64,000 nt of DNA from Micromonospora echinofusca (GTDB taxonomy: Bacteria; Actinomycetota; Actinomycetes; Mycobacteriales; Micromonosporaceae). Where the stretch lies: positions 4,987,001 to 5,051,000 of the forward strand of contig NZ_LT607733.1 of assembly GCF_900091445.1 (NCBI RefSeq). The letters are read 5' to 3'. The notes under the pieces were generated by a model. It was not told the DNA's origin. It made no database searches and saw only the letters and a list, made by a program, of their open reading frames with translations. The first letter of the stretch is position 1. Each line of letters opens with the position of its first letter. Shown piece by piece: positions 15,453-53,400 of the stretch. The translations under genes were made by a program, and so were the position numbers.

Positions 15453-15575
15453 CCCCGGAATGAGGCGCCTCGGACGCCGATCCTCGCGGCGACGGCCCCG
15501 GAGTTCCTGGCTCCCCGCTCCGCGGCGCTGATAAATACTATTCGCATACCCGCACCGATCTAAATGGGGAAATCA

Positions 15576-16520
15576 ATGAGCAACGCAATCGCGAACCTCG
15601 TGGCGACACCCACGGCCGGTGCGGTGGAACCACAGGCGATCGACGTTTCGGCCGTGCACAAGAGATACGGCGACGTGCGGGCCGTCAACGGCATCGACCT
15701 GCGGATCGCGCCCGGCGAGGTGGTGGCGCTGCTCGGGCCCAACGGCGCGGGCAAGTCCACGCTCGTCGACATGATCCTGGGGCTCACCCGCCCCGACCGC
15801 GGCGAGATCCGCGTCTTCGGGCACACCCCCCGGGAGGCCATCGCCCGGGGCGTCATCGGGGCGACGCTCCAGGACGGCGCGCTGCTCGACGACGTGTCGA
15901 TCCGCGAGCTGCTCACGATGGTGGCATCGCTGCACGCCGCCCCGCTGCCGATCGCCGAGGTGCTGCGCCGCACCGACCTGACCGACATCGCCGACCGCCG
16001 CAGCCGGCTCTCCGGCGGTCAGCGCCAGCGGCTGCGGCTGGCGATGACTCTCGTGTCCGACCCGAAGCTGCTGGTCCTGGACGAGCCGACGGTGGCGATG
16101 GACGTCGAGTCGCGCCACGTGTTCTGGGCCGCCATGCGGGAGTTCACCGACTCCGGGCGCACCGTGGTGTTCGCCTCCCACTACCTGGAGGAGGCCGAGG
16201 AGTTCGCCGACCGGGTGGTGCTCGTACAGGCCGGGACGGTCATTGCCGACGGCACGGTCGCGGAGATCCGTTCCGTGGTGGCGGGCCGCTCGCTGGCGGC
16301 CACCGTCCCGGACGCGACGGTGGAGCAGCTGCGCCTGCTGCCCGGCGTGCTGAGCGCCGAGTCCCGCGGCCAGCGCTTCGAACTCGTCTGCTCCGACTCC
16401 GACGCCGCCGCCCGGGAGCTGTTCGCACGCCATCCCCGGGCGTACGACGTCGAGATCGGCGCCCTCGGCCTGGAACAGGCGTTCCTGGCCCTCACCTCCA
16501 CGAAGGGCGGGGCCGCCTGA
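15576..16520 (+). CDS. ABC exporter ATPase of the cluster (DrrA-like)
   Basis: 314 residues from ATG 15576, chosen because TGGGGA lies seven bases upstream; ATG 15564 would add four residues. Walker A is GPNGAGKST, the Q-loop follows at ATLQDGALLDD, the signature is LSGGQRQRLRLAM, Walker B LLVLDEPTVAMD and the H-loop VVFASHYLEEAEE. The C-terminal 75 residues form the DrrA-type regulatory tail. An AT-rich promoter-like region (TGATAAATACTATTCGC, 15528-15544) precedes it. It opens the rightward biosynthetic operon and overlaps the permease start by one base. It probably exports the cluster product, giving self-protection. Confidence 0.92.
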   Translation: MSNAIANLVATPTAGAVEPQAIDVSAVHKRYGDVRAVNGIDLRIAPGEVVALLGPNGAGKSTLVDMILGLTRPDRGEIRVFGHTPREAIARGVIGATLQDGALLDDVSIRELLTMVASLHAAPLPIAEVLRRTDLTDIADRRSRLSGGQRQRLRLAMTLVSDPKLLVLDEPTVAMDVESRHVFWAAMREFTDSGRTVVFASHYLEEAEEFADRVVLVQAGTVIADGTVAEIRSVVAGRSLAATVPDATVEQLRLLPGVLSAESRGQRFELVCSDSDAAARELFARHPRAYDVEIGALGLEQAFLALTSTKGGAA

Positions 16521-17257
16521 TGAGCACGGGCTTCCTCAAGCTCGAAGTGAAGCGGGTGATCCGTGCCCGCAAGTTCTGGATCGTCGCGTTCCTGTTCCCG
16601 ACGCTGCTCTACCTGATGCAGGCCAACCTGTTCCGCGGCGAGGTCGTCGAACGCACCGGCATCAACTTCAGCGAGCACCTGCTGGGCGGGCTCGCCGCCT
16701 TCGGCGCGCTCTTCGTGGCGTTGAACGTCGGCACCCGGGTGGCGATCGAGCGGTCGACGGGGTGGCAGCGCCAGTTGCGCATCACCCCGCTGTCGCCTAC
16801 GTCGTACCTGACCGCGAAGCTGGCCGCCGCGATGGTGGTGGCGCTGCCGGCGATCACGGCGGTGGCGCTCACCGGCGCGCTGTTGCAGGGCGTCCGGCTG
16901 CCGCTGGGCGGCTGGCTCCAGCTGGTGCTCGGGGTCTGGGTCGGCACGCTGCCGTTCGCGCTGCTGGGCGTCTTCATCGGCCAGGTCGCCACGGCCGAGA
17001 GCGTGCAGGTCCTCACCTCCGTCTCGCACATGCTGCTCGGGGTGCTCGGCGGCGCGCTGTTCCCGTCGGTCGCGTTCCCCGAGTGGCTCCAGGCGGTGTC
17101 CGCCGTCATGCCGAGCCACTGGCTGGCCGTGGTCGGCCACAGCCCGTTCGAGGCCGACTCCCGCCTCGGGCTCGCGGCCCTGGTGCTCGCGGGCTGGACC
17201 GTCGTGCTCGGCGCCGCCGTGACCCTGCGGTACGTGCGCGACAGCGCCCGCGTCTGA
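16520..17257 (+). CDS. ABC-2 permease partner of the cluster exporter
   Basis: 245 residues, ATG overlapping the ATPase stop (TGATG). Six hydrophobic segments are visible, among them FWIVAFLFPTLLYLM (about 16-30), LAAFGALFVALNVG, MVVALPAITAVALTGALL, LVLGVWVGTLPFALLGVFIG, VLTSVSHMLLGVLGGALF and LGLAALVLAGWTVVLGAAV. This is the ABC-2 exporter fold. Overlapping reading frames and shared operon position pair it with the preceding ATPase. The cargo is inferred to be the polyketide made here. Confidence 0.9.
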   Translation: MSTGFLKLEVKRVIRARKFWIVAFLFPTLLYLMQANLFRGEVVERTGINFSEHLLGGLAAFGALFVALNVGTRVAIERSTGWQRQLRITPLSPTSYLTAKLAAAMVVALPAITAVALTGALLQGVRLPLGGWLQLVLGVWVGTLPFALLGVFIGQVATAESVQVLTSVSHMLLGVLGGALFPSVAFPEWLQAVSAVMPSHWLAVVGHSPFEADSRLGLAALVLAGWTVVLGAAVTLRYVRDSARV

Positions 17258-17328: not shown

Positions 17329-18150
17329 GTGAAGAAGAACTCCTGGCAGATACTGCGCAAGGGCGGACCGGGCGGCCTCACGCTCACCGTCGACTTCACC
17401 AGCACCGGCCGCACCCAGGCGTGTTTCCGCGACCTGGTCCCCCTGTTGAGCGCACCCGGCGAGATCTGGGAGACCGTGGCACCCGCCTCCGGCGCCGAGG
17501 ACACCATGTCCGGCGCCGACTACGTCGAGCGGTGGGCGAAGGGCGTCCGCCGGCGTGAGCGCACCGTCGACACCGTGATCGGCTACTGCGTGGGCGCGGT
17601 CTTCGCCGCCGGCCTCGCGTCCCGGCTGGCCGAGAGCCAGGACGAGGCCCCCAGGCTGGTCCTGCTCGACCCGGAGCTGCCGAACATCGTCGGGCTCTAC
17701 CGGGACTTCCACGCCGCCGCGGACGCGCTGCGCACCATCCTCTCCCCGGAGGAGATCGCCGCGTTCCACGCCGACGGCCAGGCGGTGCAGGAGAAGTACG
17801 GGCTGGACGACCTGACCCTCATCGGTCCCGCGCTCGCCGGGATCTTCCGCGACGCGATCGACGTGGCGGGCCGCAGGCTCGGGCTGGACGACGACGTCCG
17901 GGGCGAACTGGGCGGCAGCTTCGCCTCGTTCGTCGGGTACCTGCGGGCGGCGACGGAGATCGACCCTCTCCCGGTGTGGCAGACGGCGACGGCGATCACC
18001 TCCGCGCACTCCACCCAGCGGGGACAGGTCTTCGGGCGCACCATCGCGCTCGACGTCGACCACGACCAGATGCTGCGCCACCCCGACGTCGCCGCGGCGG
18101 TCTCCGGCCTGATGACCGGCGCGGACGCCGGCCTGCGGATCGCGGGGTAG
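17329..18150 (+). CDS. Alpha/beta-hydrolase with Cys-Asp-His triad, candidate Dieckmann (tetramate) cyclase
   Basis: 273 residues from GTG 17329 with GAGGGA upstream. The nucleophile elbow reads GYCVGA, with Cys87 where type II thioesterases have Ser. Asp114 lies in LVLLDPE and His245 in LDVDHDQML, completing a Cys-Asp-His triad in thioesterase-like order. Known members with Cys at this place are the Dieckmann cyclases of tetramate pathways (TrdC, SlgL, NcmC), which release PCP-bound beta-ketoacyl-aminoacyl chains as 3-acyl tetramic acids. The gene sits directly before an A-PCP and a C-A-PCP protein, just the substrates such a cyclase needs. Alternatively it is a proofreading thioesterase; no other thioesterase is visible in the cluster. 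Confidence 0.75.
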   Translation: MKKNSWQILRKGGPGGLTLTVDFTSTGRTQACFRDLVPLLSAPGEIWETVAPASGAEDTMSGADYVERWAKGVRRRERTVDTVIGYCVGAVFAAGLASRLAESQDEAPRLVLLDPELPNIVGLYRDFHAAADALRTILSPEEIAAFHADGQAVQEKYGLDDLTLIGPALAGIFRDAIDVAGRRLGLDDDVRGELGGSFASFVGYLRAATEIDPLPVWQTATAITSAHSTQRGQVFGRTIALDVDHDQMLRHPDVAAAVSGLMTGADAGLRIAG

Positions 18151-18154
18151 CGCG

Positions 18155-19945
18155 GTGGCACCGGGCCCGGCGGGCGGCGAGCCCGCGCTCTTCACCGACC
18201 TGTTCGCGCAGCAGGTGCGGCGCACCCCGCACGCGACCGCCGTCGTGTGGGGCGAGCACCGCAGGACGTACGCCGAACTGGACGCCGAGGCGAACCGGCT
18301 CGCGCACCGGCTGGTGTCGCTCGGCGCGGGCCCGGACCGGCTCGTCGCGATCGGCATCCGCTCCGCGCATCTGGTGGTGGCCGCGCTGGCCACCCTCAAG
18401 GCCGGGGCGGCCTACCTGCCGCTGGACCTGAGCTACCCGCCGCAGCGACTGGAGCACATGCTCAGCGACGCGCGGCCCATGCTCCTGCTGACCACCGGCG
18501 ACGACCAGCACGCGCTGCCGGCGTCCGACACGCCACGGGTCCTCCTCGACGATCCGGACGCGTACGCCGGCCAGCCGGACACCGACGTCACCGACACCGA
18601 CCGGCTCACCCCGCTGCGGCCCGCCAACACCGCGTACGTCATCTACACCTCCGGCTCCACCGGCAGCCCCAAGGGCGTGGTGATCGAGCACCGCCAGCTC
18701 GGCACGTACCTGCGTCACGTGGTGGCGGCCTACCCGGGCGTACGCGGGCGGGCGCTGCTGCACTCCTCGTTCGCGTTCGACCTGACGGTCACCGCGTTCT
18801 ACGCGCCGCTCATGACGGGCGGCTGCGTGCACGTCGGCGCCCTGGAGGAGATGGGCACGCCCGCCGCCGGACCCTCCGGGCAGGAGCGGCCCACGTTCGT
18901 CAAGGTGACGCCCTCGCACATCCCGCTGCTCACCGCGCTGCCCGCCGAGGCGTCCCCGAGCGGGGAACTGATGGCCGGCGGCGAGCTGCTGCTCGGCGAG
19001 ACCGTCGACGCCTGGCGCCGCCGGCACCCCCGCGCACGGGTCGTCAACGAGTACGGTCCGACGGAGACGACCGTCGGGTGCAGCACCGTGGTCATCGAGC
19101 CCGACCAGCCGGTGCCGCCCGGACCGCTGCCCATCGGCCAGCCCATGCCCGACGTGCGCTTCCACGTGCTGGACGAGGAACTGCGCCCGGTCGCGCCCGG
19201 CGAGATCGGCGAGCTGCACATCGCGGGGACCCAGTTGGCCCGGGGCTACCTGGGCAGGCCGGCGCTGACCGCCGAGCGTTTCCTGCCGGACCCGTTCGGC
19301 CCGCCCGGCTCGCGCATGTACCGCTCCGGCGACCGGATCCGGCCCACCGAGGACGGCGAGTACGAGTTCTGCGGGCGGGTCGACAACCAGGCGAAGATCC
19401 GCGGCTACCGCATCGAGCTCGGGGAGATCGAGGCGGCGCTGCTGCGCCGTCCGGAGGTGCGGCACGCGGCGGCGGTGATCCGCACGGACGCCCCGGAGGT
19501 CAAGCAGCTCGTCGCGTACGTCGTGCCCGGGGAAGGCGCGAGGATCGACGCGCAGCAGCTGCGCAAGGACCTCGCCGAGACCCTGCCGGAGTACATGGTG
19601 CCGAGCGCCGTGGTGAGCCTCCCGGCGCTGCCGCTGACCGTGAACCGCAAGCTCGACACGGCGGCCCTGCCGGCGCCGGAGGTCTCGGCGACGCCGGGCG
19701 GGCGGGCGCCGGCCGACGAGTTGCAGGCGCTGCTGTGCGAGCTCTTCGCCACCTACACGGCCGTCTCCTCGATCGGCGTCGACGACGACTTCTTCGTCCG
19801 GGGCGGCACCAGCCTCGGCGCCGCCCAGCTGGTCAACGAGGCACGCCGGCGCGGGCTCACCCTGTCGCTGCGTGACGTGCTGGAAAACCGGACCGTGGCG
19901 CGTCTCGCCGAGGTCTGCGCCGACACCGACCGAGGGGACGAGTGA
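18155..19945 (+). CDS. Stand-alone NRPS A-PCP protein, predicted L-asparagine activating
   Basis: 596 residues, GTG start four bases after the preceding stop. The A domain (about 20-505) has intact core motifs: YTSGSTGSPKG, NEYGPTE, YRSGDRIR, GRVDNQAKIRGYRIELGEIE and the A10 Lys in NRKLD. Reading the ten specificity positions by hand gives D-L-T-K-M-G-E-V-G-K, one residue from the code I recall for Asn (DLTKLGEVGK). The PCP (about 520-590) has FFVRGGTSLGAAQ with Ser553 as phosphopantetheine site. It should activate Asn, or 3-hydroxy-Asn made by the neighbouring oxygenase, and either hydroxylation or transfer to the second PCP may follow. No MbtH-like gene is seen. Confidence 0.88.
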   Translation: MAPGPAGGEPALFTDLFAQQVRRTPHATAVVWGEHRRTYAELDAEANRLAHRLVSLGAGPDRLVAIGIRSAHLVVAALATLKAGAAYLPLDLSYPPQRLEHMLSDARPMLLLTTGDDQHALPASDTPRVLLDDPDAYAGQPDTDVTDTDRLTPLRPANTAYVIYTSGSTGSPKGVVIEHRQLGTYLRHVVAAYPGVRGRALLHSSFAFDLTVTAFYAPLMTGGCVHVGALEEMGTPAAGPSGQERPTFVKVTPSHIPLLTALPAEASPSGELMAGGELLLGETVDAWRRRHPRARVVNEYGPTETTVGCSTVVIEPDQPVPPGPLPIGQPMPDVRFHVLDEELRPVAPGEIGELHIAGTQLARGYLGRPALTAERFLPDPFGPPGSRMYRSGDRIRPTEDGEYEFCGRVDNQAKIRGYRIELGEIEAALLRRPEVRHAAAVIRTDAPEVKQLVAYVVPGEGARIDAQQLRKDLAETLPEYMVPSAVVSLPALPLTVNRKLDTAALPAPEVSATPGGRAPADELQALLCELFATYTAVSSIGVDDDFFVRGGTSLGAAQLVNEARRRGLTLSLRDVLENRTVARLAEVCADTDRGDE

Positions 19946-22900
19946 GCATGAGCATCGCGGCCAGCAGGAAGGAAGCAGCCATGTGGCTGCTCGAGCGGCT
20001 GGTGCCGGACACCGGGGTCAACAACGTGGCGGTCGCCTTCGAGGTGGCCGGCCGGATCGACCGCGAGCTGTTCACCGCGGCGCTGCGGGCGGTCCTGGCC
20101 CGCCACGAGGTGCTGCGCACCGTGTTCCGCACCGACGACGCGACGCTGACCAGGGAGGTGCTCGCCGCCGACCGGCTCGACGTGCCGGTGGTGGACGTCC
20201 CGGCCGGCGACGACGGGATGGACGCCGACCTGACCGCGTTCGCCGCCGAGCCCTTCGCGATCGACGGCCGCCCGCTGGTGCGGGCGGGCATCCGCGCGGG
20301 AGCCGACGGCGACGTGTGCTGCGTCGTCGTGCACCACCTGAACTTCGACGCCATGTCGACCACGATCCTGCTCCGCGAGCTGCTCGTCGCCTACGAGACC
20401 CTCGCGGCGGGACGCCGGCCGGACGACGCCCCGGTGGCGGCGCTCGCGGAACGCCCGCCGAACGAGCGCAGCGTCGCGTACTGGCGGAAGAACCTCGACG
20501 GGCTGCGGCCCGCCGAGGCGGGTCTGTGGTGCGCCCGCCCGCCCGTCGGGGCCCCGTCCCTGCGCGCGCGGACCGTCCACCACGAACTCTCCGGGCCGGC
20601 CCGCGCCGTGGTACGCCGCTTCCAGCGCGAACTGCGCGCCTCGGAGGCGGTGGTGCTGCTCGCGGCGTACTCGGTGCTGCTCGCCCAGCACGGCGCGGGT
20701 GCGGACGTGGTCATCGGCACCCCGGTGAACGTCCGGGACCAGCGCAGCATGAACGCCATCGGCTACCACGCGAACCTGGTGCCGCTGCGGGTCCGGCTCG
20801 ACGCCGACGCCGACTTCCGCGCCGTCGTGAAGCAGACGCGCAGCACCTTCCTGGAGGCGATCAGCCACGCCGACGTACCGCTGGAGCACGTGTCCCCCGC
20901 CGTGCTCGGCGACGCGCCGTCGTCGTGGCGCAGCTCGTTCTTCCGGCACCTGTTCAACTACGTGCCCGGCACCGTCGACACCTCCGCCGCGCTGACCGGG
21001 ATGCCGGTGCGCCACGTCATGGTGGAGAACGGGTACAGCCGCTTCGACCTGGAATTCTTCATCATGCCGGGCGAGGACTCGACCACCATTCGCGCGGCGT
21101 TCTGCGTCGACGCCTTCGACGCGGCCGACGTCGTGCTGCTGCTGCAACGCTACGACGCGCTGCTCGTGCAGCTGGGCGAGGAGGTGGACCGGCCGGTGGC
21201 CCAGCTGTCCCGCAGGGGCGCGAGCGACCTCGCCCTGCCGGCGTCGCCGTCGGCGACGGCCGCCACGGCGTCCGTGCTCGACGCGGTGCACGCGACGGTG
21301 GCGGCGAGCCCGGACCTCGTCGCCGTGCAGGACGGCGCGCACGCCGTGTCGTACGGCCGGCTGTGGTCGGCGGCGCTCGCCACCCGGGACCTGGTCGCGG
21401 CCTCGGGCGGCGGCACGGTCGCCGTCCTGGCGCCGCGCGGCGCGCAGCTGGCCGCCGCCTGGCTCGGCGTGTGGCTGGCGGGCGCGCGCTGCGTCCTGCT
21501 CGACCCGACCCAGCCGATCCCCGACCTCGCCGCCCGGCTGGCCGACTCGGGTGCCGCCCCGGTGCTGGCGGGCGACGGCCTCCCCGTGCCCGGCGCGGTG
21601 CCCATCCCCGCCGTCGCGGACACCACCGACGCGATCCGCACCGACGCGCCCGCTGGCGGTGACCTCGACGCGGTGGCCTACCTGGAGTACCACCGCGACA
21701 CGCCCGCGCCACTCGCGGTGACGGTCACCCACCGGGCCCTGGCCGGCGCGGTCGCGCGACTCGTCGACCAGCTCGCCGCCTCGCCGGCCGTCACCCTGTG
21801 GCTGAGCAGCGCCGCCACGGACGCGGCGCTGACGGAGCTGCTGGTCGCGCTGACCACCGGCGGCCGGGTCGTCGTCGCGCCCGACGGGGCCCGGACCGAC
21901 GGCCACGCGCTCGGCGAGCTGGTGCAGCGGCACGCCGTGGACGCGGTGCAGGCGCCGCCGACGGTGTGGCGCCAGGTGGTCGAGCACGCGGGCGACCGGC
22001 TCGCGGGCCGCGCCCTCCTGGTGGCGCACGAACCGCTCCCCCGCCCGCTGGCCGCGCAGCTGCGCGCCACCGGCGGCACGCCGAACCACGGCTACACCAC
22101 GCCCGGCGTCGCCGGCTACGCCGCGCTCGACGGCGGCCGGGACGAGCCCGGCGTCCGCCCGGCGACCGGAGTGTTCGTCACCGAGCCCGGCACCGGGCAC
22201 GAGCTGGGCATCGGCGTACGCGGTGAGCTGTGCGTCGCGGGCGACACCCTGGCCTCCGGCTACCACGGCCGGCCGGAGCTGACCGCCGCGCGCTTCGGCG
22301 AGCACCCGACGTACGGGCGGTTCCACCGCACCGGAGACCTCGCGCGTCTGCTGCCCGACGGCCGGATCGACGTGGTCGGCCCGCTGTCGGCCCAGGTACG
22401 GGTCGGCGGCCAGCTGATCCACCTCGCCGACATCGAGTCCGTCCTCGCCGCCCACCCGGACGTGGAGGCGGTCGCCGCCGTCGGCTCCGCCAGCGACGCC
22501 CAGGACGTCACGGTCGTCGCGTTCGTCGAGTCCCGCAAGCCCGACATCGCGGAGCGGCTGCGCGAGCACGCCCGCGCCGCCCTGCCGCTCACGCCCGAAC
22601 TGGTCGTGCTGAACCAGCTTCCGGTCACCGTGGCCGGCACCGTGGACCGCGTGGCCCTCGTGGCGCTCGCCGCCGCGAGGGCGTCGGCCGACGCCGACCC
22701 GCCGGACGAGACGACCGTCGCCCTCGTCGGGATCTGGACCGAGATGCTCGACCGGCCGGGCCTGCACGCGGACTCGAACTTCTTCGCCAGCGGTGGCCAC
22801 TCGCTGCTGGGCGCCCAGCTCGTGCAGCGGGTGCGGACCGACCTGTCGATGCCGGTCCAGCTCGCCGACCTGTTCTCCAACCCGACGCCCCGGCAGCTCG

Positions 22901-22947
22901 CGGAGCACCTGCAGAACGCGTTCTGGGACGACGAGGACGACGACTGA
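19942..22947 (+). CDS. NRPS C-A(inactive)-PCP protein
   Basis: 1001 residues; the GTG at 19942 overlaps the previous stop, with ATG 19948 as alternative. The condensation domain (about 1-435) has HHLNFDA (His131, His132, Asp136), the active His-His-x3-Asp with the usual Gly replaced by Ala. The A domain (about 445-895) is degenerate: the phosphate loop (YTSGSTGxPKG) is lost, NxYGPTE has become NHGYTTPG, the RIELGEIE region is altered and the catalytic Lys is absent, though RTGDLARL remains. The PCP (about 905-985) has NFFASGGHSLLGAQ, Ser954. It must be charged in trans, most simply by the A-PCP protein, and its C domain would join the polyketide to the amino acid. Confidence 0.88.
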   Translation: MSMSIAASRKEAAMWLLERLVPDTGVNNVAVAFEVAGRIDRELFTAALRAVLARHEVLRTVFRTDDATLTREVLAADRLDVPVVDVPAGDDGMDADLTAFAAEPFAIDGRPLVRAGIRAGADGDVCCVVVHHLNFDAMSTTILLRELLVAYETLAAGRRPDDAPVAALAERPPNERSVAYWRKNLDGLRPAEAGLWCARPPVGAPSLRARTVHHELSGPARAVVRRFQRELRASEAVVLLAAYSVLLAQHGAGADVVIGTPVNVRDQRSMNAIGYHANLVPLRVRLDADADFRAVVKQTRSTFLEAISHADVPLEHVSPAVLGDAPSSWRSSFFRHLFNYVPGTVDTSAALTGMPVRHVMVENGYSRFDLEFFIMPGEDSTTIRAAFCVDAFDAADVVLLLQRYDALLVQLGEEVDRPVAQLSRRGASDLALPASPSATAATASVLDAVHATVAASPDLVAVQDGAHAVSYGRLWSAALATRDLVAASGGGTVAVLAPRGAQLAAAWLGVWLAGARCVLLDPTQPIPDLAARLADSGAAPVLAGDGLPVPGAVPIPAVADTTDAIRTDAPAGGDLDAVAYLEYHRDTPAPLAVTVTHRALAGAVARLVDQLAASPAVTLWLSSAATDAALTELLVALTTGGRVVVAPDGARTDGHALGELVQRHAVDAVQAPPTVWRQVVEHAGDRLAGRALLVAHEPLPRPLAAQLRATGGTPNHGYTTPGVAGYAALDGGRDEPGVRPATGVFVTEPGTGHELGIGVRGELCVAGDTLASGYHGRPELTAARFGEHPTYGRFHRTGDLARLLPDGRIDVVGPLSAQVRVGGQLIHLADIESVLAAHPDVEAVAAVGSASDAQDVTVVAFVESRKPDIAERLREHARAALPLTPELVVLNQLPVTVAGTVDRVALVALAAARASADADPPDETTVALVGIWTEMLDRPGLHADSNFFASGGHSLLGAQLVQRVRTDLSMPVQLADLFSNPTPRQLAEHLQNAFWDDEDDD

Positions 22948-22997
22948 CCGATCACTCAACCCCACACCGTCTCGAACCTCAGCAGAGGAGGCTCGGC

Positions 22998-23993
22998 GTG
23001 ACCGTCGACGTCCAGCCCACCCGCGGCACCGACCGCATGATCACACTGACCAGAGAGGAGAACATCGAGGTCGACACGATCGCCCGCTACCTGGCGGGCC
23101 GGCCGCCGCGCCTGGTCGATGCGACCGCCTGGCTCGCATCGGCCCGCGAACTGTCCAGCAACCTGCCCGTACGACTGCGCCAGATGGTGCGGCACTTCGC
23201 GTGGGATCCCGGGCTCGACGCCGTGCTGCTCGTGCGGAACCTGCCCGTCGACATCGACGAGTTGCCCGCCACGCCCACCGTGCCCGGCTCGGTGCAGCGG
23301 GAGTCCACGGTGCCCGCCGCCGCCCAGGTGCTGCTCGGGCTGCAACTCGGCGAACTCATCGCCTTCAAGGAGGAGAAGAGCGGCGCGCTCGTACAGGACG
23401 TCGTGCCGGTGCCGGGCATGGAGAAGTTCCAGGGCAACGCGGGCTCGGTGGCGCTGTCCATGCACGTGGAGAACGCCTTCCACCTGCACCGCCCGGACTA
23501 CGTCGGCCTGCACTGCCTGCGCAACGACCACGACAACGTCGCCGGGTTGCGGGTGACGTCCGTCCGCAACGCGCTGCCCCTGCTCTCCGAGCAGGTCCGG
23601 CGGGTGCTGCACGAGCCGCGGTTCGTCACCGAGCCGCCGGCGTCGTTCGGCGAACTGCGCAGCGCGCCGGAGCCGCACGGCATCCTCGTCGGCAGCTTCG
23701 AGGACCCGGACGTGCGGGTCGACTTCGAGAGCTCCTTCCCGCTCGACCCCGAGGCCACGCAGGCGCTGTCGATGCTCGGCGACGCGCTGCGCACCGTCCG
23801 CCGCACCTTCATCCTGGAGCCCGGCGACCTGGCGTTCGTCGACAACCGCCTGGCCCTGCACGGCCGCACCGAGTTCACCCCCCGCTACGACGGCCGCGAC
23901 CGCTGGCTCCAGCGGATCTTCGTGCACCGCGACTTCCGGCGCTCCCGCGCCATGCGGCCGGCCGACGGCCACGTGCTCAGCAGCGCGAACTGA
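22998..23993 (+). CDS. Non-heme iron/2-oxoglutarate asparagine beta-hydroxylase (AsnO-like, TauD/clavaminate synthase family)
   Basis: 331 residues from GTG 22998 with a strong AGAGGAGG site. The facial triad is His156-x-Glu158 (SMHVENAF) and His288 (NRLALHGRTEF), and a following Arg (YDGRDRW region) should bind 2-oxoglutarate. The HxE variant and the blocks NAFHLHRPDYVGL and HGRTEFTPRY are characteristic of the AsnO/VioC branch, which hydroxylates the beta carbon of Asn or Arg. With an Asn-type A domain next to it, L-Asn to 3-hydroxy-Asn is the natural reaction, on free or PCP-bound substrate. AsnO itself acts on the free amino acid. Arg as substrate is the main alternative. Confidence 0.87.
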   Translation: MTVDVQPTRGTDRMITLTREENIEVDTIARYLAGRPPRLVDATAWLASARELSSNLPVRLRQMVRHFAWDPGLDAVLLVRNLPVDIDELPATPTVPGSVQRESTVPAAAQVLLGLQLGELIAFKEEKSGALVQDVVPVPGMEKFQGNAGSVALSMHVENAFHLHRPDYVGLHCLRNDHDNVAGLRVTSVRNALPLLSEQVRRVLHEPRFVTEPPASFGELRSAPEPHGILVGSFEDPDVRVDFESSFPLDPEATQALSMLGDALRTVRRTFILEPGDLAFVDNRLALHGRTEFTPRYDGRDRWLQRIFVHRDFRRSRAMRPADGHVLSSAN

Positions 23994-24094: not shown

Positions 24095-25306
24095 ATGGCG
24101 AGCAAGTGCCCGGTACACGGATTAGAGAAGCTGATGGACGCGGACTACTTCGCGACCCCGTACGCGCCGTCCGAGCGCTTCGTGGCGCTACACGAGCGGG
24201 GCGCGGTCCACCAGACCTGCCTCGACGACCACGGCCGGGTATGGCTGGTCACCGGGCACGCCGAGGTCTTCGCCGCGCTGCGCGACAAGCGCCTCGCGCG
24301 CCCCCGCGAATACTCCAACGGGGACTTCGCCAGCCACCGGTTCCCGGAGGGCACGCCGACCGGCACGATCATCACCCTCGACCCGCCGGAACACACGCCG
24401 CTCAAGAAGATGGTCAACTTCACCTTCCTGCCCCGCCACCTGGAGACCTTCCGGCCCCGGATTCACGCCGTGGTCGCCATGCTGCTGGACAAGTTCGAGG
24501 CGAATGGCGGCGGCGACCTGGTAGAGGACTACGCGGCCATCGTGCCGATCACGATCGTCTGCGACGTACTCGGCCTTCCCGAGAGGTTCCGCAAGAACCT
24601 CAAGCAGTGGGCGGACCTCGGCTTCGGTAGTGACGACGAGACCAACGTCAAGATCCGGGAGAGCATGTTGGGGATGCTCGAGGAGGTCCGACAGCAGAAG
24701 ACGGCGGAGCCCAGCGAAGACCTCTTCTCGTACTGGATCCACTACCGGGACGCCGACGGCAAACCGGTGCTGAACCCCCAGCAGTTGTTGATCATGGCCG
24801 CGCTGACGATCCTGGGTGGCTACGACACCACCGCAGGCATGATCAGCCGAGGCGCCCTGGCCCTGCTGGACTCCCCGGAGACGCTGGAGCGACTCCAGCG
24901 GGATCCCGATCTGTTCCCCGAGGCCATCGAGGAGCTGTTGCGCCGCAACGGCTCGGTGCACCACGGCTTCCGCCGCTTCGCCACCGAGGACATGGAGATC
25001 GACGGCAGGAAGATCAACAAGGGCGACACGGTGCTGTTGCACCTGACTGCCGCGGGCAACGACCCGAAGCGGTTCCCCGATCCGCAGGTGCTCGACATCG
25101 ACCGCGCCGACAAGGGGCACGTGGCGTTCGGCGGCGGCCCGCACTTCTGCGCGGGAGCGGAACTGGCCCGGATGGAGATCAACATCGCCCTCCGGGAACT
25201 GTTCACCCGCTTCCCCGACATCAAGCTGGCCGTGCCCCAAGAGTCGCTGAAGTTGCGTGCCTACCCGTTCATTCCCGGGATCGTCTCGCTACCGGTCACG
25301 GTCTGA
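24095..25306 (+). CDS. Cytochrome P450
   Basis: 403 residues, GAGGAC before the ATG. Heme loop FGGGPHFCAGAELAR with Cys352 as thiolate ligand; I-helix oxygen-activation motif GGYDTTAG; the E-x-x-R pair in IEELLRRNG; the C-helix region PPEHTPLKKMVNFTF. It is a soluble bacterial class I P450 and needs a ferredoxin; a 3Fe-4S ferredoxin is encoded at the end of the other arm. Codon use is visibly less GC-biased (more TTG, GTA and AAG) than in the flanking NRPS and PKS genes, suggesting separate acquisition. It likely oxidises the polyketide or the tetramate after assembly; the site cannot be predicted. Confidence 0.93.
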   Translation: MASKCPVHGLEKLMDADYFATPYAPSERFVALHERGAVHQTCLDDHGRVWLVTGHAEVFAALRDKRLARPREYSNGDFASHRFPEGTPTGTIITLDPPEHTPLKKMVNFTFLPRHLETFRPRIHAVVAMLLDKFEANGGGDLVEDYAAIVPITIVCDVLGLPERFRKNLKQWADLGFGSDDETNVKIRESMLGMLEEVRQQKTAEPSEDLFSYWIHYRDADGKPVLNPQQLLIMAALTILGGYDTTAGMISRGALALLDSPETLERLQRDPDLFPEAIEELLRRNGSVHHGFRRFATEDMEIDGRKINKGDTVLLHLTAAGNDPKRFPDPQVLDIDRADKGHVAFGGGPHFCAGAELARMEINIALRELFTRFPDIKLAVPQESLKLRAYPFIPGIVSLPVTV

Positions 25307-25360
25307 CGCGTTCCGCCCCGGCCCGCAGCACAACTCCTGTCCGACAAGAGGTTGTTCAAC

Positions 25361-38314
<12,954 letters not shown>

Positions 38315-38615: not shown

Positions 38616-38936
38616 CTACGCGGTTGGGGGCGGCACCAGCTTCGGGGCGATCTGCGTTCCGGTTCGCGCGTCGAGCACCAAGATGGCCTCCACCGGACAG
38701 CACTCGGCGGCCTCGACCACCGCGTCATCCGGCGCCACCACGTCGGCCGACGGCCGGGAGACCTGCTCCATCGTGAAGTGGTCCGGCGCGCTGCCGACGC
38801 AGAAGCCCGAGGTGACGCATCGGGCCGAGTCCACCGACAGCCGCCACCGGGTCTGGCTCTCCGCGTCCGCGCTCGTCGCTGCCTCGTCCCGTCGCACGTC
38901 CGCGGTGCTGGGCCCGTTGGTCACGAGTGGGTCCAC
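38616..38936 (-). CDS. 3Fe-4S/4Fe-4S ferredoxin for cytochrome P450
   Basis: 106 residues from GTG 38936. The core (about 30-95) reads LSVDSARCVTSGFCVGSAPD and later AAECCPVEAI: Cys-x5-Cys and a distal CP, the single-cluster ferredoxins that serve actinomycete P450s, with Ser-Gly where the second Cys of a 4Fe-4S set would be, so a 3Fe-4S cluster is likely. The first 28 residues are a polar lead without a targeting signal. Its GTG lies one base after the stop of the FG-GAP gene, and its ribosome site GGTGAG lies inside that gene, so translation is coupled. The P450 at 24.1 kb is the likely partner. Confidence 0.87.
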   Translation of the reverse strand: MDPLVTNGPSTADVRRDEAATSADAESQTRWRLSVDSARCVTSGFCVGSAPDHFTMEQVSRPSADVVAPDDAVVEAAECCPVEAILVLDARTGTQIAPKLVPPPTA

Positions 38937-38937
38937 G

Positions 38938-39822
38938 TCAGCTCACCACCGAGTACTTCTGCCAACCGGTCGCGATGACCTCCGGTGCGGACATCGTCGC
39001 GTCCGGCCGGTCCGGGGCGAACTTGCCGTTGTGCAGGTGGACCACGAGCGTGCCGTCGGCGCGTACGGCCAGCAGGTCCGGCCGGCCGTCGAGGTCGATG
39101 TCGGTCACCGAGATGTGCGCGAACTCCTGCCAGCCCCGGCCGAGCGTGTACCAACGGCCCTCGCCCTGCCACCATTGGCCCTCGCCGGAGGTGTTGTGCG
39201 CGAACTCGTACAGGTCGAGGTCGCCGTTGGCACGGCGGACCAGCAGATCGGGGCGGCCGGTGCCGGTGATGTCGGCCATTGCGAGCGGGAAGTCGTTGAC
39301 GTCGACGGTCACCAGTCGGTGCGCGGTGCGGTCGTACGTCTCGTTCTGCTTGACCTCCCGCTGGTTGAAGAACGCGTCGACGTTGCCCGCGTTCTGTTCC
39401 CGGCCGAACATGTCGTCGCAGCCGTCCATGTCGACGTCCGCGATGCCCAGGGTCTCCCACTTCTTGTCGTCGCGTGCGCCGGAGATGCGGATCGGCTCGC
39501 CGAGGGTGTCGAGGCCGTTCAGCCCGCCCTTGTTCGGGTAGAGAAAAATGCCGTGGGTCGCGTTCGCATAGGTCATGCTGACGCCGATGACGTCGGCATA
39601 ACCGTTACCGGTGACGTCGATGGGACGGACCACCACGTGGTTCCGCTGCGGATGGAAGCTGGTGCTGATCAACTCCGGCTTGTCGAAGGTCTCGCTGCCA
39701 CGGAAGCTGCCGGTGTGCGGAAAGACCAGCAGATGGCCCGTGGCGTCGTCGCGGGCCATGATGTCCATCCTCCCGTCCCCGTTGAATGAACGGCAGTGGC
39801 CATTCCCGCTCATGCGTGCCAC
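38938..39822 (-). CDS. Cytosolic FG-GAP/VCBS repeat (beta-propeller-like) protein
   Basis: 294 residues from GTG 39822, which has GGAGGT five bases upstream; an upstream in-frame ATG at 39864 lacks such a site. At least five repeats carry the calcium-loop pattern of FG-GAP/VCBS blades: FNGDGRMDIMARD, IDVTGNGYADVIG, ADVDMDGCDDMFG, ADITGTGRPDLLVR and TDIDLDGRPDLLAVR. Such proteins are usually exported or surface-bound; this one has no signal peptide or membrane segment. Its role in a polyketide pathway is unknown; scaffold, lectin-like or substrate-binding functions are possible. It is coupled to the ferredoxin gene, has its own upstream motif, and has a deleted relative next to the amidase gene. 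Confidence 0.82.
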   Translation of the reverse strand: MARMSGNGHCRSFNGDGRMDIMARDDATGHLLVFPHTGSFRGSETFDKPELISTSFHPQRNHVVVRPIDVTGNGYADVIGVSMTYANATHGIFLYPNKGGLNGLDTLGEPIRISGARDDKKWETLGIADVDMDGCDDMFGREQNAGNVDAFFNQREVKQNETYDRTAHRLVTVDVNDFPLAMADITGTGRPDLLVRRANGDLDLYEFAHNTSGEGQWWQGEGRWYTLGRGWQEFAHISVTDIDLDGRPDLLAVRADGTLVVHLHNGKFAPDRPDATMSAPEVIATGWQKYSVVS

Positions 39823-39888
39823 AAATACCTCCAGGTATGCTCCGAAATACGACAGTCCGATCATTACGAACGGGAGATGGGGCAGGTA

Positions 39889-39947: not shown

Positions 39948-41144
39948 TCAGCGGAACTTGATGTGGGAACGGTTCAACTCGTCCATTGAACCGACCCCGA
40001 GCAGCTTCATGGTGATTTCGATCTCCCGGCTGAGAATCTCCATCGCGCGTACGACGCCGCGCCGGCCGCCGGCCATCAAGCCGTACTGGTAGGCCCGACC
40101 GACCACCGCGGCGCTGGCGCCCAGCGCGATCGCGGCCACGATGTCCGCGCCCGAGGTGATGCCGGTGTCGACGAGCACCTCGACCCGGTCACCGACCTCG
40201 TCGACCACGTGCGGCAGCAGCTCGACGGGCACCGGTGCCCGGTCGAGCTTGCGCCCGCCGTGCGTGGACAGCCACACCCCGTCGACCCCGACGGCCGCGA
40301 CCCGCTTGGCGTCCGCGACGCTCTGCACGCCCTTGGCGACGAGCTTTCCCGACCAGGCGCCGCGCAGCCACTCGACGTCCTCGATGGACAACCGCGGGTT
40401 GAACACCCGTTTGATCATGTCCGACGCGGACCCGCCGGTCGCCTTCAGCACCTGCGGCGACGGGGCGCCCGCCCGGAACTGCCGCACCCACCAACCCGGG
40501 TGCAGGCACGCCTCGGCGAAGGTGGCGACGCTCATCGACGGCGGGATGGTGAGCCCGTTGCGGATGTCGCGGCGGCGCGGGACGGAGATCGGCGTGTCCA
40601 GCGTCAGCAGGATCGTGTCGAACCTGGCCTCCTCCGCGAGCGCGAGCAGCTCCTTGACCATCGCCCGGTCCTCGGCGAAGTACAGCTGGAACCAGTGCCG
40701 GCCCTCCGGCGCGGCGGCGGCGACGTCCGCCAGCGACGTGGTGGCGAGGGTGGAGACCGAGTACGGCACACCGAACTGCTGCGCGACCGAGGCGACCGCC
40801 GGCTCGCCCTCGGCGTGCATCACCCGGTTGAACCCGACGGGCGCCAGGGCGAACGGCAGCTTCTGCCGCTTTCCCAGCACCGTACGGCTGGTGTCCAGTT
40901 TGGACACGTCGCGCAGAACCGACGGCTGGAACTCGATGTTCGCGAAGGTCTCCCGCGCGCGGCTGAGGCTGCGCTCGCTGTCCGCCGCCCCGTCGCAGTA
41001 GTCGAACACCATCCGCGGCACGGCCCGGCGGGCGACGGCGCGCAGGTCGGCGATGCCCGCCGCGCGCAGCAGCCGGCGATCCGTCGGGTTCCACGCCACC
41101 TTGGGCGGCTTGATCAGGGTGCTCATCCGAGCGGACTTGCTCAT
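39948..41144 (-). CDS. FMN-dependent alpha-hydroxy-acid oxidase/dehydrogenase (LldD/Hmo family)
   Basis: 398 residues from ATG 41144 with AAGGAAG upstream; longer and shorter in-frame ATGs exist. The TIM-barrel FMN family is clear: MVFDYCDGAADSERS near the start, FALAPVGFNRVMHAEGE, ILLTLDTPISVPRRRDIRNG, the catalytic His295 and Arg in LSTHGGRKLD, and the phosphate site DTGITSGADIVAAIALGASA with VVGRAYQYG. These enzymes oxidise 2-hydroxy acids such as lactate, glycolate or 4-hydroxymandelate to 2-oxo acids. In this cluster it might prepare the unusual starter acid or oxidise a hydroxy acid branch; I cannot tell. It follows the last PKS gene by 63 bp in the same operon. Confidence 0.9.
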   Translation of the reverse strand: MSKSARMSTLIKPPKVAWNPTDRRLLRAAGIADLRAVARRAVPRMVFDYCDGAADSERSLSRARETFANIEFQPSVLRDVSKLDTSRTVLGKRQKLPFALAPVGFNRVMHAEGEPAVASVAQQFGVPYSVSTLATTSLADVAAAAPEGRHWFQLYFAEDRAMVKELLALAEEARFDTILLTLDTPISVPRRRDIRNGLTIPPSMSVATFAEACLHPGWWVRQFRAGAPSPQVLKATGGSASDMIKRVFNPRLSIEDVEWLRGAWSGKLVAKGVQSVADAKRVAAVGVDGVWLSTHGGRKLDRAPVPVELLPHVVDEVGDRVEVLVDTGITSGADIVAAIALGASAAVVGRAYQYGLMAGGRRGVVRAMEILSREIEITMKLLGVGSMDELNRSHIKFR

Positions 41145-41207
41145 GTGGGCTTCCTTATGTGAGGGGGGTGAGGAAGGGGGCCGCTCCACGTCGTGGGGGG
41201 GGGTCGG

Positions 41208-50459
<9,252 letters not shown>

Positions 50460-50485: not shown

Positions 50486-53400
50486 TCAACCGGTGCCGAG
50501 TTCGTCGTCGATGAACCGCAACAGGTCGTCGGCCGATGCGGTCTTCAGCGCCAGGCCGACGTCCAGTCCGTCGGGTTCGGTGTCCACGTCGGACCTGCCA
50601 CGCCAATTCGACATCACCGCGTGCAACCGATCGGTAATCCGTGCCTTGACCGCGTCCGCCAGGCCCGCCGCTCCGGCCTGGGCGAACGACCGCTCCAGCC
50701 GGTCCAGCTCGGCCAGCAGCCCCGCCGCCGGGTCCGCCTCGGCCGGGGCCAGCCCGGCCAGCAGGTGGTCGGTGAGCGCCCCGGCGGTCGGGTGGTCGAA
50801 GACCATCGTGGCGGAGAGCTTCAGGCCGGTGGCCGCCTTCAGCCGGTTGCGGAACTCGACCGCCGTCAGGGAGTCGAAGCCCAGCTCGGTGAAGGGCCGG
50901 TCGGGGTCGACGGCGCTCGCGCTGGCGTGCCCGAGCACGGCGGCGGCCTGCGCCTTGACGAATTCCAGCGCGGTGTGCCGCCGCTGCGGGCCGCTCTGGC
51001 TCGCGAGGTGGTCCCGCAGGGCGCCGGGCGACTGCGCCGCCTGCTCCACCGCCCGCCGGGACGTGCCCCGGACCAGGCCGCGCAGCAGCGGGGGCAGCAT
51101 GCCGACCCGGCCCAGCTCGCGCAGGGCCGCCGGGTCCACCGGCATCGGCACCAGCAGCGCCTCGTCGATCAGCTCCGCCGCGTCGTAGAGCGCCATGCCC
51201 TGCGCCACGGACAGTTCCAGCAGCCCGACGCGGGCCATCCGGGCCCGGTCGGTGGCGTCCAGGTGCGCGGTCATCCCGCTCGCCTCGCCCCACAGTCCCC
51301 AGGCGAGCGAGCGGGCGGGCAGCCCGGCCGCGCGCCGGTGGGCCACGAGCGCGTCGAGGAAGGTGTTCGCCGCCGCGTAGTTGCCCTGCCCGGGGCCGCC
51401 CATCGTGCCGGCCGCCGCGGAGAACACCACGAACTCGGCCAGCTCGGCGTCGAGCGTCAGCTCGTGCAGGTTGACCGCCGCGTCGACCTTCGGCCGCAGC
51501 ACCGCGTCGACCTGCTCCGGGGTGAGCGCGGTGACCAGGCCGTCGTCGAGGACGCCCGCCGTGTGCACCACGGCGGTCAGCGGGTGCGCGGCGGGGACGC
51601 GGGCCAGGGTCTCGGCCAGCGCGTCGCGGTCCGCCGCGTCGCAGGCGGCGACCGTGACCTGCGCCCCGTACCCGGTCAGCTCGGCCACCAGGTCGGCGGC
51701 GCCGGCGGCGTCCGGGCCCCGGCGGCTGGTGAGCAGGAGGTGCCGCACCCCGCGCCGGGTCACCAGGTGCCGCGCCAGCAGCCCGCCGAGGGTGCCGGTG
51801 CCGCCCGTGACGAGCACCGTGCCGTCGGGGTCGCGCCGGGGCGGCGTGGTGAGCACGAGCTTGCCGACGTGCCGGGCCTTGGACATGGTCCGGAACGCCT
51901 CCGGGGCGCGGCGCACGTCGTACGTGCGCACCGGCAGCGGGGTGAGGCGGTCCTCCACGAAGAGCGCGAGCACGTCCCGCAGGATCGCGCCGACCCGCTC
52001 CGGGTCGATGGCGAGCAGGTCGAACGCCTGGTACTCGACCCCCGGGTGGTCCTCGGCGACCCGCCCCGGGTCGCGTACGTCGGTCTTGCCCATCTCGATG
52101 AACCGGCCGCCGCGGCCCAGCAGCCGCAGCGAGGCGTCGACGAACTCCTTGGCCAGCGAGTCGATCACCACGTCGATGCCGGCCCCGCCGAACCGCTGCT
52201 CGAACTCCAGGGTGCGGGAGTTGCCGATGTGCGAGTCCGGCAGCCCCATCGCGCGCAGCGCGTCCCACTTGCCGGTGCTCGCCGTGCCGTACACCTCGGC
52301 GCCGAGGTGCCGGGCGAGCCGGACCGCGGCCATGCCGACGCCGCCGGACGCGGCGTGCACCAGGACCCGCTCCCCCGGCTTCACCTGGGCCAGGTCGACC
52401 AGCGCGTAGTAGGCGGTGCAGAAGGCGATCGGGGTCGACGCCGCCTGGGCGAACGACCACCCCGCCGGTACCGGCACGACCATCCGCGCGTCGGTGACGA
52501 CGTCGGTGCCGAAGGCGCCGTAGAACAGGCCCATGACGCGGTCGCCGACCGCGACGCCGCTCACGTCGGGTGCGGCCTCGACGACCACGCCCGCGCCCTC
52601 GCCACCCATCACCCCGCCGCCGGGGTACATGTCGAGGGCGATCAGCACGTCGCGGAAGTTCAGGCCGGCGGCGCGCATCGCGATGCGCACCTGCCCCGGC
52701 GCCAGGGCGGGGGCCTGTTCCGCCTCGGGCAGCAGGGCGAGGTTGTCCAGCGTGCCCCGCTCGGTGACGTCCAGCCGCCAGCGATCGGCCGTGGGCGCCG
52801 TCAGCGCGGGGCTGCTGGCCGCCCGGGCGAGCCGGGGCGCCAGGGCGACGCCGTCGCGGATCGCGAGCTGCGGCTCGTCGGCCGCGAGCACCGCCGCGAG
52901 CGCCCGGTGCGGTTCGCGGTCGTCGACGTCGAGCAGGACGAAGCGGTCCGGGTTCTCGCTCTGCGCCGAGCGGAGCAGACCCCACACCGGCGAGCCGGCC
53001 AGGTCCGCCGCCGCCTCGTGCACGCTCACCGCGTCCCGGGTGACGACGACCAGCCGGGCGTCGGCGAACCGCTCCTCCGCCAGCCACTCCCGCAGCACCG
53101 CGAGGGTGTCGTGCACGGCCCGGTGCGCCGCCCCGGCGAGGTCGCCGGCGGCGTCGGCCGCGCAGGCCAGCACGACCAGGGCGGGCATCGGCGCGCCGTC
53201 GGCCACGCCGGCCCGCAGCGTCGCCAGATCCGGGTACGCGTCGGCGACGAGGCCGGCGTCCTGGGGCAGGGTGCAGCCGCCGAGAGCCGCCCAGCGGGCG
53301 TCCGGCGGGGTCGCCGGGGTGGCGGCCGGGGTCCACTCCAGGCGGAACAGGGCGTCGTGGTGCGTACTCGGCTGCGCGGGGGCGGCGGCCTCCCGCAGCA

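Follow-up and report, generated by a model that had tools for sequence, protein, structure and literature searches.

A candidate four-gene set in Micromonospora echinofusca for ending a long polyketide in a hydroxyasparagine-derived tetramate

The window examined here is a 64,000-nucleotide (64-kb) stretch of the Micromonospora echinofusca genome (NCBI RefSeq assembly GCF_900091445.1, contig NZ_LT607733.1, positions 4,987,001 to 5,051,000), and our subject is a set of four genes packed closely on its plus strand between positions 17329 and 23993. These genes encode a hydrolase with a cysteine nucleophile, a stand-alone adenylation and peptidyl carrier protein (A-PCP), a condensation, adenylation and carrier protein whose adenylation domain has lost its core motifs (C-A(dead)-PCP), and an AsnO-type asparagine hydroxylase. 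We consider the locus to be candidate equipment for capping a long polyketide with a tetramate ring derived from hydroxylated asparagine, a reading to which we assign a probability of about three in four (0.76). The original prediction, made from the sequence of the window, had listed four adjacent genes of these kinds on one strand, and coordinates, domain matches and motifs agree with it in both position and identity. The full set is present in all seven related clusters that we identified, namely those of the source genome, of G219, G226, G246, G263 and G277, and of a Saccharothrix metagenome-assembled genome (MAG).

The cysteine hydrolase resembles the nocamycin cyclase NcmC

The hydrolase gene (17329..18150, plus strand) encodes a protein of 273 residues for which profile searches of Pfam and NCBIfam gave no match at E ≤ 0.001. 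Its best sequence match in the PDB was NcmC, the Dieckmann cyclase of nocamycin biosynthesis (E = 4e-44, residues 5-262), and its AlphaFold2 model (pLDDT 88.6) matched the fold of NcmC with a TM-score of 0.86 and an E-value of 7e-27, while for the best fold match other than NcmC, a fatty acid synthase thioesterase, the E-value was 3e-10. Four consecutive long helices span residues 120-208 of the predicted model, which has the NcmC fold of an alpha/beta-hydrolase with a four-helix subdomain. The Cys-Asp-His triad and the Tyr proton shuttle (Cys87, Asp114, Tyr204 and His245) are kept in all seven homologues, in step with the active-site residues Cys89, Asp116, Tyr204 and His245 given for the bripiodionen cyclase BpdE in the excerpts available of its description (PMC10956176).

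We reconstructed a phylogeny with IQ-TREE from 33 chosen sequences, comprising 26 members of the Cys family, NcmC among them, and, from the 21 PF00975 matches of the source genome, seven thioesterase-family proteins; the named sequences TrdC and SlgL lay outside this tree. The Cys family, including the hydrolase and NcmC, was separated from the seven thioesterases by a split with support of 99.5/100 and a branch length of 1.57, and a further hydrolase tree built with FastTree had weak inner support. Grouping with type II thioesterases, which the original prediction had set as one of its refutations, was therefore not recovered, and its description of a Cys-Asp-His alpha/beta-hydrolase held as well, with the triad aligned and NcmC the best match in both sequence and fold. 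Judged by sequence and predicted structure, the hydrolase is thus a Dieckmann cyclase of the NcmC/TrdC type, and its predicted activity is the cyclisation of an N-beta-ketoacyl aminoacyl thioester.

A split asparagine module and an AsnO-type hydroxylase

The second gene (18155..19945, plus strand) encodes the A-PCP, with Pfam matches to AMP-binding, AMP-binding_C and PP-binding and with the adenylation motifs A3, A5, A7 and A10 all present. Using motif anchors that we take to convert correctly to code positions, we read the Asn-type specificity code DLTKMGEVGK in all seven clusters. A database search recovered P0087, a 587-residue A-T (adenylation and thiolation) protein of Streptomyces reniochalinae that is 49% identical to the A-PCP; because its organism and length equal those of BpdD in the table of the bripiodionen paper, we take P0087 to be BpdD. 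Its code, DMTKVGEVGK, shares eight of ten positions with that of the A-PCP, and among the 120 relatives listed DLTKMGEVGK occurred 8 times, DLTKVGEVGK 45 times and DMTKVGEVGK 35 times. The code check proposed in the original prediction thus returned an Asn type in every cluster, and the similar code of P0087/BpdD belongs to a pathway whose product holds Asn; a literature search with the letters of the Asn code gave no match. The A-PCP is predicted to activate Asn or 3-hydroxy-Asn.

The third gene (19942..22947, plus strand) encodes the C-A(dead)-PCP, in which Pfam detected a Condensation domain (E = 4e-49), an AMP-binding domain in two pieces, and PP-binding. The C motif HHLNFD and the PCP motif GGHSL are intact. 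The A3 and A5 patterns are absent from the A domain in all seven homologues, the A10 lysine is replaced in all seven, and an A7-like motif is left in six, in agreement with the inactive A domain that had been predicted. In the homologue of the Saccharothrix MAG (L003, G354:C17) 86 residues of the A domain are gone (873 versus 1001 residues in total) with the C and PCP motifs intact, which fits an A domain out of use. By these motifs, all seven clusters carry a split nonribosomal peptide synthetase (NRPS) in which a C-A-T protein with an inactive A domain is accompanied by a separate A-T protein, both T domains retaining their serine. Separately, two clusters around other NcmC-like hydrolases contain C-bearing proteins of 578-598 residues without an A-domain match (L052:8827-10623 and L055:9431-11167), which perhaps represent a separate loss of the A domain in tetramate modules.

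The fourth gene (22998..23993, plus strand) encodes the putative Fe(II)/2-oxoglutarate-dependent asparagine hydroxylase; we placed its start at a GTG preceded by AGGAGG, and an in-frame ATG lies at 23037. In a PDB search AsnO (2og5) was the closest match at 290 bits, followed by clavaminate synthase at 161 bits. The iron ligands HxE...H, the 2-oxoglutarate-binding Arg, and Glu125, Asn146 and Asp241, which we take to correspond to the Asn contacts of AsnO, are conserved in all seven homologues. The AsnO-like hydroxylase of the original prediction is therefore well founded as a family assignment, and the enzyme is predicted to hydroxylate Asn at C-beta.

The chain to be released would come from the terminal module of the polyketide synthase (PKS), the second half of PKS5 at 41.2-45.2 kb, in which we detected a ketosynthase (KS), a malonyl-type acyltransferase (AT) and an acyl carrier protein (ACP). 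Dehydratase (DH), ketoreductase (KR), C-terminal docking tail and thioesterase (TE) were all unmatched in this module, so that the last PKS module is non-reducing and TE-less, as had been noted, and should yield a beta-ketoacyl chain.

Transferring the mechanism described for bripiodionen to this cluster and adding Asn hydroxylation, we propose a route in which the AsnO-type enzyme would hydroxylate the C-beta of Asn, either free or PCP-bound; AsnO of the calcium-dependent antibiotic hydroxylates free Asn. The A-PCP would activate Asn or 3-hydroxy-Asn and hold it on its own PCP, from which the aminoacyl group would move to the carrier domain of the C-A(dead)-PCP. There the C domain would couple this group to the beta-ketoacyl chain of the terminal PKS module; the Cys hydrolase would then take the chain off this carrier, with Dieckmann condensation giving a released 3-acyl tetramate. 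The C-5 side chain would finally be that of an intact 3-hydroxy-Asn, although further oxidation by an FMN dehydrogenase conserved with the set is possible.

Distribution of the set among relatives

To place the set in context, we surveyed NcmC-like hydrolases across related genomes. At E ≤ 1e-10 there were 33 matches in 29 of 354 genomes of the family, and at 1e-20 five of 394 genomes across the class matched, the source genome included. Surroundings were read for 20 of the 32 family matches outside the source genome, and three of the seven plasmid records with a match were examined. For comparison we used 22 stretches of 9-25 kb around other NcmC-like hydrolases, drawn from 15 family matches, three plasmids and four class-wide genomes. 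AsnO was found in none of these 22 stretches, the four class-wide ones included.

The last six PKS modules have the same order in the four clusters that we mapped (the source genome, G226, G277 and G354), and the early modules differ. The constancy of these modules suggests that the set is tied to one compound family rather than being a free-moving kit, and it led us to reject the idea of a portable unit that acts on different PKSs. Elsewhere in the survey, NcmC-like hydrolases with 44% and 40% identity (L104 and L105) lie near a two-module NRPS and a cytochrome P450, with a neighbour that is only weakly KS-like; these may be cyclases for peptides.

Alternative explanations

An ordinary type II (editing) thioesterase would share the alpha/beta-hydrolase superfamily with the cyclases, and two of the seven own-genome thioesterase-family proteins likewise have Cys at the aligned nucleophile place. 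Furthermore, PF00975 (thioesterase) is the precomputed label of P0013, at 60% identity the nearest relative from outside the Micromonospora/Saccharothrix group. The window hydrolase is itself not matched by PF00975, NcmC fits its model over the full length where thioesterases fit far less, and the long, strongly supported split in the tree argues strongly against this identity; we regard it as extremely improbable. It is also conceivable that the hydrolase is an aminoacyl shuttle like SyrC or CmaE, which would pick up hydroxy-Asn at the A-PCP, deliver it to the C-A(dead)-PCP and leave release to something else. The split layout requires such a transfer step, SyrC and CmaE are documented in layouts of this kind, and none of the genome's 21 PF00975 matches falls between 15.5 and 81.7 kb. 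Nevertheless, the nearest solved relative is a Dieckmann cyclase, and in 11 of the 22 comparison stretches a neighbouring C-A protein has the A3 motif, so that a shuttle should be unneeded there. In addition, Cys, Asp, His and Tyr mutants of the bpd homologue failed to restore the tetramate, according to the excerpts available (PMC10956176). Taken together, these points make a dedicated shuttle improbable, whereas a single hydrolase could do both jobs.

As for the amino acid, the A-PCP might load Asp or another amino acid, with the hydroxylase acting elsewhere. Near-identical codes with H322 (DITKMGHVGK and DLTKMGHVGK), a residue that we assume marks Asp, occur among the relatives of the A-PCP, but Glu occupies this position in all seven clusters, as it does in P0087/BpdD, whose product contains Asn, and an AsnO-type hydroxylase adjoins the A-PCP; we consider this alternative quite improbable. 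A different possibility, compatible with a hydroxyasparagine tetramate and refining it, is that the ring bears an oxidised side chain. The FMN-dependent alpha-hydroxyacid dehydrogenase gene (39948..41189, minus strand) accompanies the set in all seven clusters and is absent from the 22 comparison stretches, although at 9-25 kb these may miss it, and in G277 it directly precedes the cyclase gene, with both on one strand. Alpha-hydroxy acids are the substrates of the solved relatives of this enzyme, and since 3-hydroxy-Asn is an alpha-hydroxy amide, its CH(OH)-CONH2 group might be oxidised to an alpha-keto amide. The enzyme could instead act on the polyketide or its starter, and its family acts on carboxylates; we hold the alpha-keto amide to be a possible outcome, if one that we lean against.

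Several observations weigh against the tetramate reading itself, in addition to the PF00975 label of P0013. Arg stands in the place of His245 in four of the 26 Cys-family members; Trp replaces Tyr204 in two and Glu replaces Asp114 in one. The Asn call comes from the code, which differs from that of P0087 in having Leu rather than Met at position 236 and Met rather than Val at position 299. The PCP kept on the A-PCP leaves the transfer between the two carrier proteins unexplained, and the SyrC, CmaE, WS5/WS20 and LgnA sequences are outside the tree, so that the comparison with shuttles is only indirect. Five of the seven clusters belong to close relatives and therefore amount to fewer than seven independent observations, and the product of the cluster is so far unseen.

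Polyketide synthase and neighbouring genes

The four genes are preceded by two genes conserved with the set, an ABC transporter ATPase (15564..16520) and an ABC permease (16520..17257), and followed by a cytochrome P450 of putative tailoring function (24095..25306), all on the plus strand. PKS1 (25352..38314, plus strand) consists of an AMP-ligase, a region of 370 residues, an ACP, and two KS-AT(malonyl)-DH-KR-ACP modules. The remaining PKS genes of the window lie on the minus strand: PKS5 (41208..50459) has a KS-AT(methylmalonyl)-DH-KR-ACP module followed by the terminal KS-AT(malonyl)-ACP, PKS4 (50486..61333) has KS-AT(malonyl)-KR-ACP and KS-AT(methylmalonyl)-DH-ER-KR-ACP modules (ER, enoylreductase), and PKS3 (61356..64000, continuing to 71741 beyond the window) has KS-AT(methylmalonyl)-DH-KR-ACP and KS-AT(malonyl)-DH-KR-ACP modules. 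AT types were assigned by the HAFH/YASH motif, which we presume to be diagnostic. The overall order is AMP-ligase loading, three malonyl-DH-KR modules, methylmalonyl-DH-KR, malonyl-DH-KR, malonyl-KR, methylmalonyl-DH-ER-KR, methylmalonyl-DH-KR, and the unreduced malonyl module; if colinearity holds, the chain would be a pentaene with one hydroxyl and an alpha-methyl enone beside the tetramate.

The ~370 residues between the AMP-ligase and the ACP of PKS1 (26792-27901) had no Pfam match and show a weak likeness to the KR regions of other modules. In the clusters of G219 and G226 no PKS1 was found; a 57-residue AMP-ligase match is kept in G219 (L038:17286-17456), and an 86-residue match to a carboxyltransferase gene was recorded in G226. 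Between PKS1 and the FMN dehydrogenase lie two minus-strand genes, encoding a ferredoxin (38616..38936) and an FG-GAP repeat protein (38938..39864). The latter occurs in all seven clusters with the set, and a homologue with 40% identity is encoded on a Streptomyces plasmid (L058), next to an NRPS of the tetramate type. We rejected the idea that it is an AvmM-like macrocyclase: AvmM has 197 residues and is described as lacking sequence relatives in the excerpts available of its paper, and the sole PDB match of the FG-GAP protein is a weak one to a secreted esterase (E = 0.0016). Further out (81893-85735 in window coordinates), inspection by eye suggests genes for a YcaO protein and a nitroreductase-like partner, of the kind found with ribosomally synthesized and post-translationally modified peptides, and this pair is syntenic in the Saccharothrix MAG.

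Isonitrile genes in set-bearing genomes

Beyond the window, and numbered in its coordinates, lie genes for an acyl ligase (FadD2, 78366-79934), an FcoT protein (79971-80564; L005:15971-16564) and a ScoE isonitrile synthase (97477-98358; L006:13477-14358). ScoE scored 458 bits against NCBIfam NF049937 (cut-off 400) and was above the cut-off in all seven genomes with the set, while the FcoT protein reached the FcoT family PF10862 and missed the ScoD cut-off of NF049938 (206.6 versus 250 bits); each had exactly one match per genome in all seven. Each also occurred in seven of 160 Micromonospora genomes, which we equated with those of the family survey by genome number: the six with the set and G299, a genome without the set or a hydrolase match, in which FcoT and ScoE stand side by side among other neighbours. 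Five of these six set-bearing genomes are closely related and do not amount to six independent events; distant carriers of both the set and ScoE/FcoT are the Saccharothrix MAG and G277, the latter with a cyclase of 60% identity.

These genes raise the idea of an isonitrile-bearing polyene tetramate, in which FadD2, FcoT and ScoE would provide a beta-isocyano acid starter that enters through the loading AMP-ligase, with the hydroxy-Asn tetramate, perhaps further oxidised, at the other end. Its support lies in the match between the six set-bearing Micromonospora genomes and six of the seven with ScoE/FcoT, and in the compact cluster of G277, where ScoE adjoins AsnO, FadD2 and FcoT lie near the loading PKS, and no match above 45% was found to the NRPS that adjoins ScoE in the source genome, the 45% match being the set's own A-PCP. 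On the other side, this NRPS adjoins ScoE both in the source genome, there with a small discrete carrier protein (97146-97382) as well, and in the MAG, which points to the isonitrile perhaps being part of a second product, a peptide. The MAG, moreover, has the set on contig C17 but ScoE and FcoT on C91, where they are flanked by the AMP-ligase PKS and the PKS that follows it. On balance we consider the isonitrile tetramate rather unlikely. If the isonitrile genes do serve the same product, it would represent a compound class of which we know no example, isonitrile tetramates not having been sought in the literature. The NRPS itself (C-A-PCP-TE, L006:9320-13153; carrier at L006:13146-13382) has neighbours that by eye include a copper P-type ATPase and an ABC transporter of the iron type, and it looks like an isonitrile metallophore system.

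Comparison with known systems

Among the matches listed, in open-licence papers, for hydroxyasparagine and asparagine tetramates and for Micromonospora tetramic acids, the headgroup was not found, and the literature looked at yielded no tetramate-free product of set-bearing strains that would contradict our reading. For two reported set-bearing strains, the excerpts on M. reichwaldensis DSM 115977 name no tetramate among its products, and WMMD1082 is mentioned only in an accession table.

The same family of cyclases and the same logic of turning a polyketide into a tetramate are found in nocamycin (NcmC-NcmB) and tirandamycin (TrdC-TrdD) biosynthesis, but there a single C-A-PCP is used, which in nocamycin is predicted to take glycine (PMC5466765). 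Streptolydigin is similar in its cyclase family (SlgL), in its beta-substituted amino acid of the aspartate family and in its separate A protein; it differs in the substrate of SlgN1, 3-methyl-Asp, and in the MbtH-like domain of this protein. We know of no amino acid hydroxylase in the nocamycin and tirandamycin pathways. AsnO of the calcium-dependent antibiotic (PDB 2og5-2og7) belongs to the same hydroxylase family over its full length and feeds a lipopeptide, whereas the enzyme here lies in a tetramate cluster. On the level of compounds rather than genes, the sponge aurantosides are alike in joining a tetramate with an amide side chain, of Asn origin, to a polyene, and unlike in being glycosylated.

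The closest parallel is the bpd cluster of Streptomyces reniochalinae LHW50302, in which BpdE is the cyclase, BpdC a C-A-T protein with a naturally inactive A domain, and BpdD an A-T protein for Asn, and which makes the Asn-derived tetramate bripiodionen (PMC10956176). Like the cluster described here, it combines an NcmC-type Cys cyclase with a C-A(dead)-T and a separate A-T protein with an Asn code (DMTKVGEVGK versus DLTKMGEVGK), and it shares trans-acting release, a TE-less terminal PKS and both T domains. Production there stops when the serine of either T domain is mutated, mutation of the dead A domain is harmless, deletion of the type II TE is without effect, and the catalytic residues of the cyclase are needed (PMC10956176). 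The bpd cluster also holds that type II TE and an MbtH protein, the latter not sought in the Micromonospora cluster. Its PKS is short, with loading and three extension modules, and a hydroxylase is missing from its Table 1 (PMC10956176). The claim of novelty in the original prediction is accordingly reduced, since cyclase, A-PCP and C-A(dead)-PCP are already known as a trio from bripiodionen, and it stands for the AsnO-type hydroxylase. The differences from bpd lie in this hydroxylase, in the great length of the PKS and in the accompanying genes. The joining of an asparagine hydroxylase to a bripiodionen-type split tetramate module makes it possible to test by what route an aminoacyl group gets from one carrier protein to another when no shuttle is evident, and whether a separate A-PCP serves as a platform for amino acid modification.

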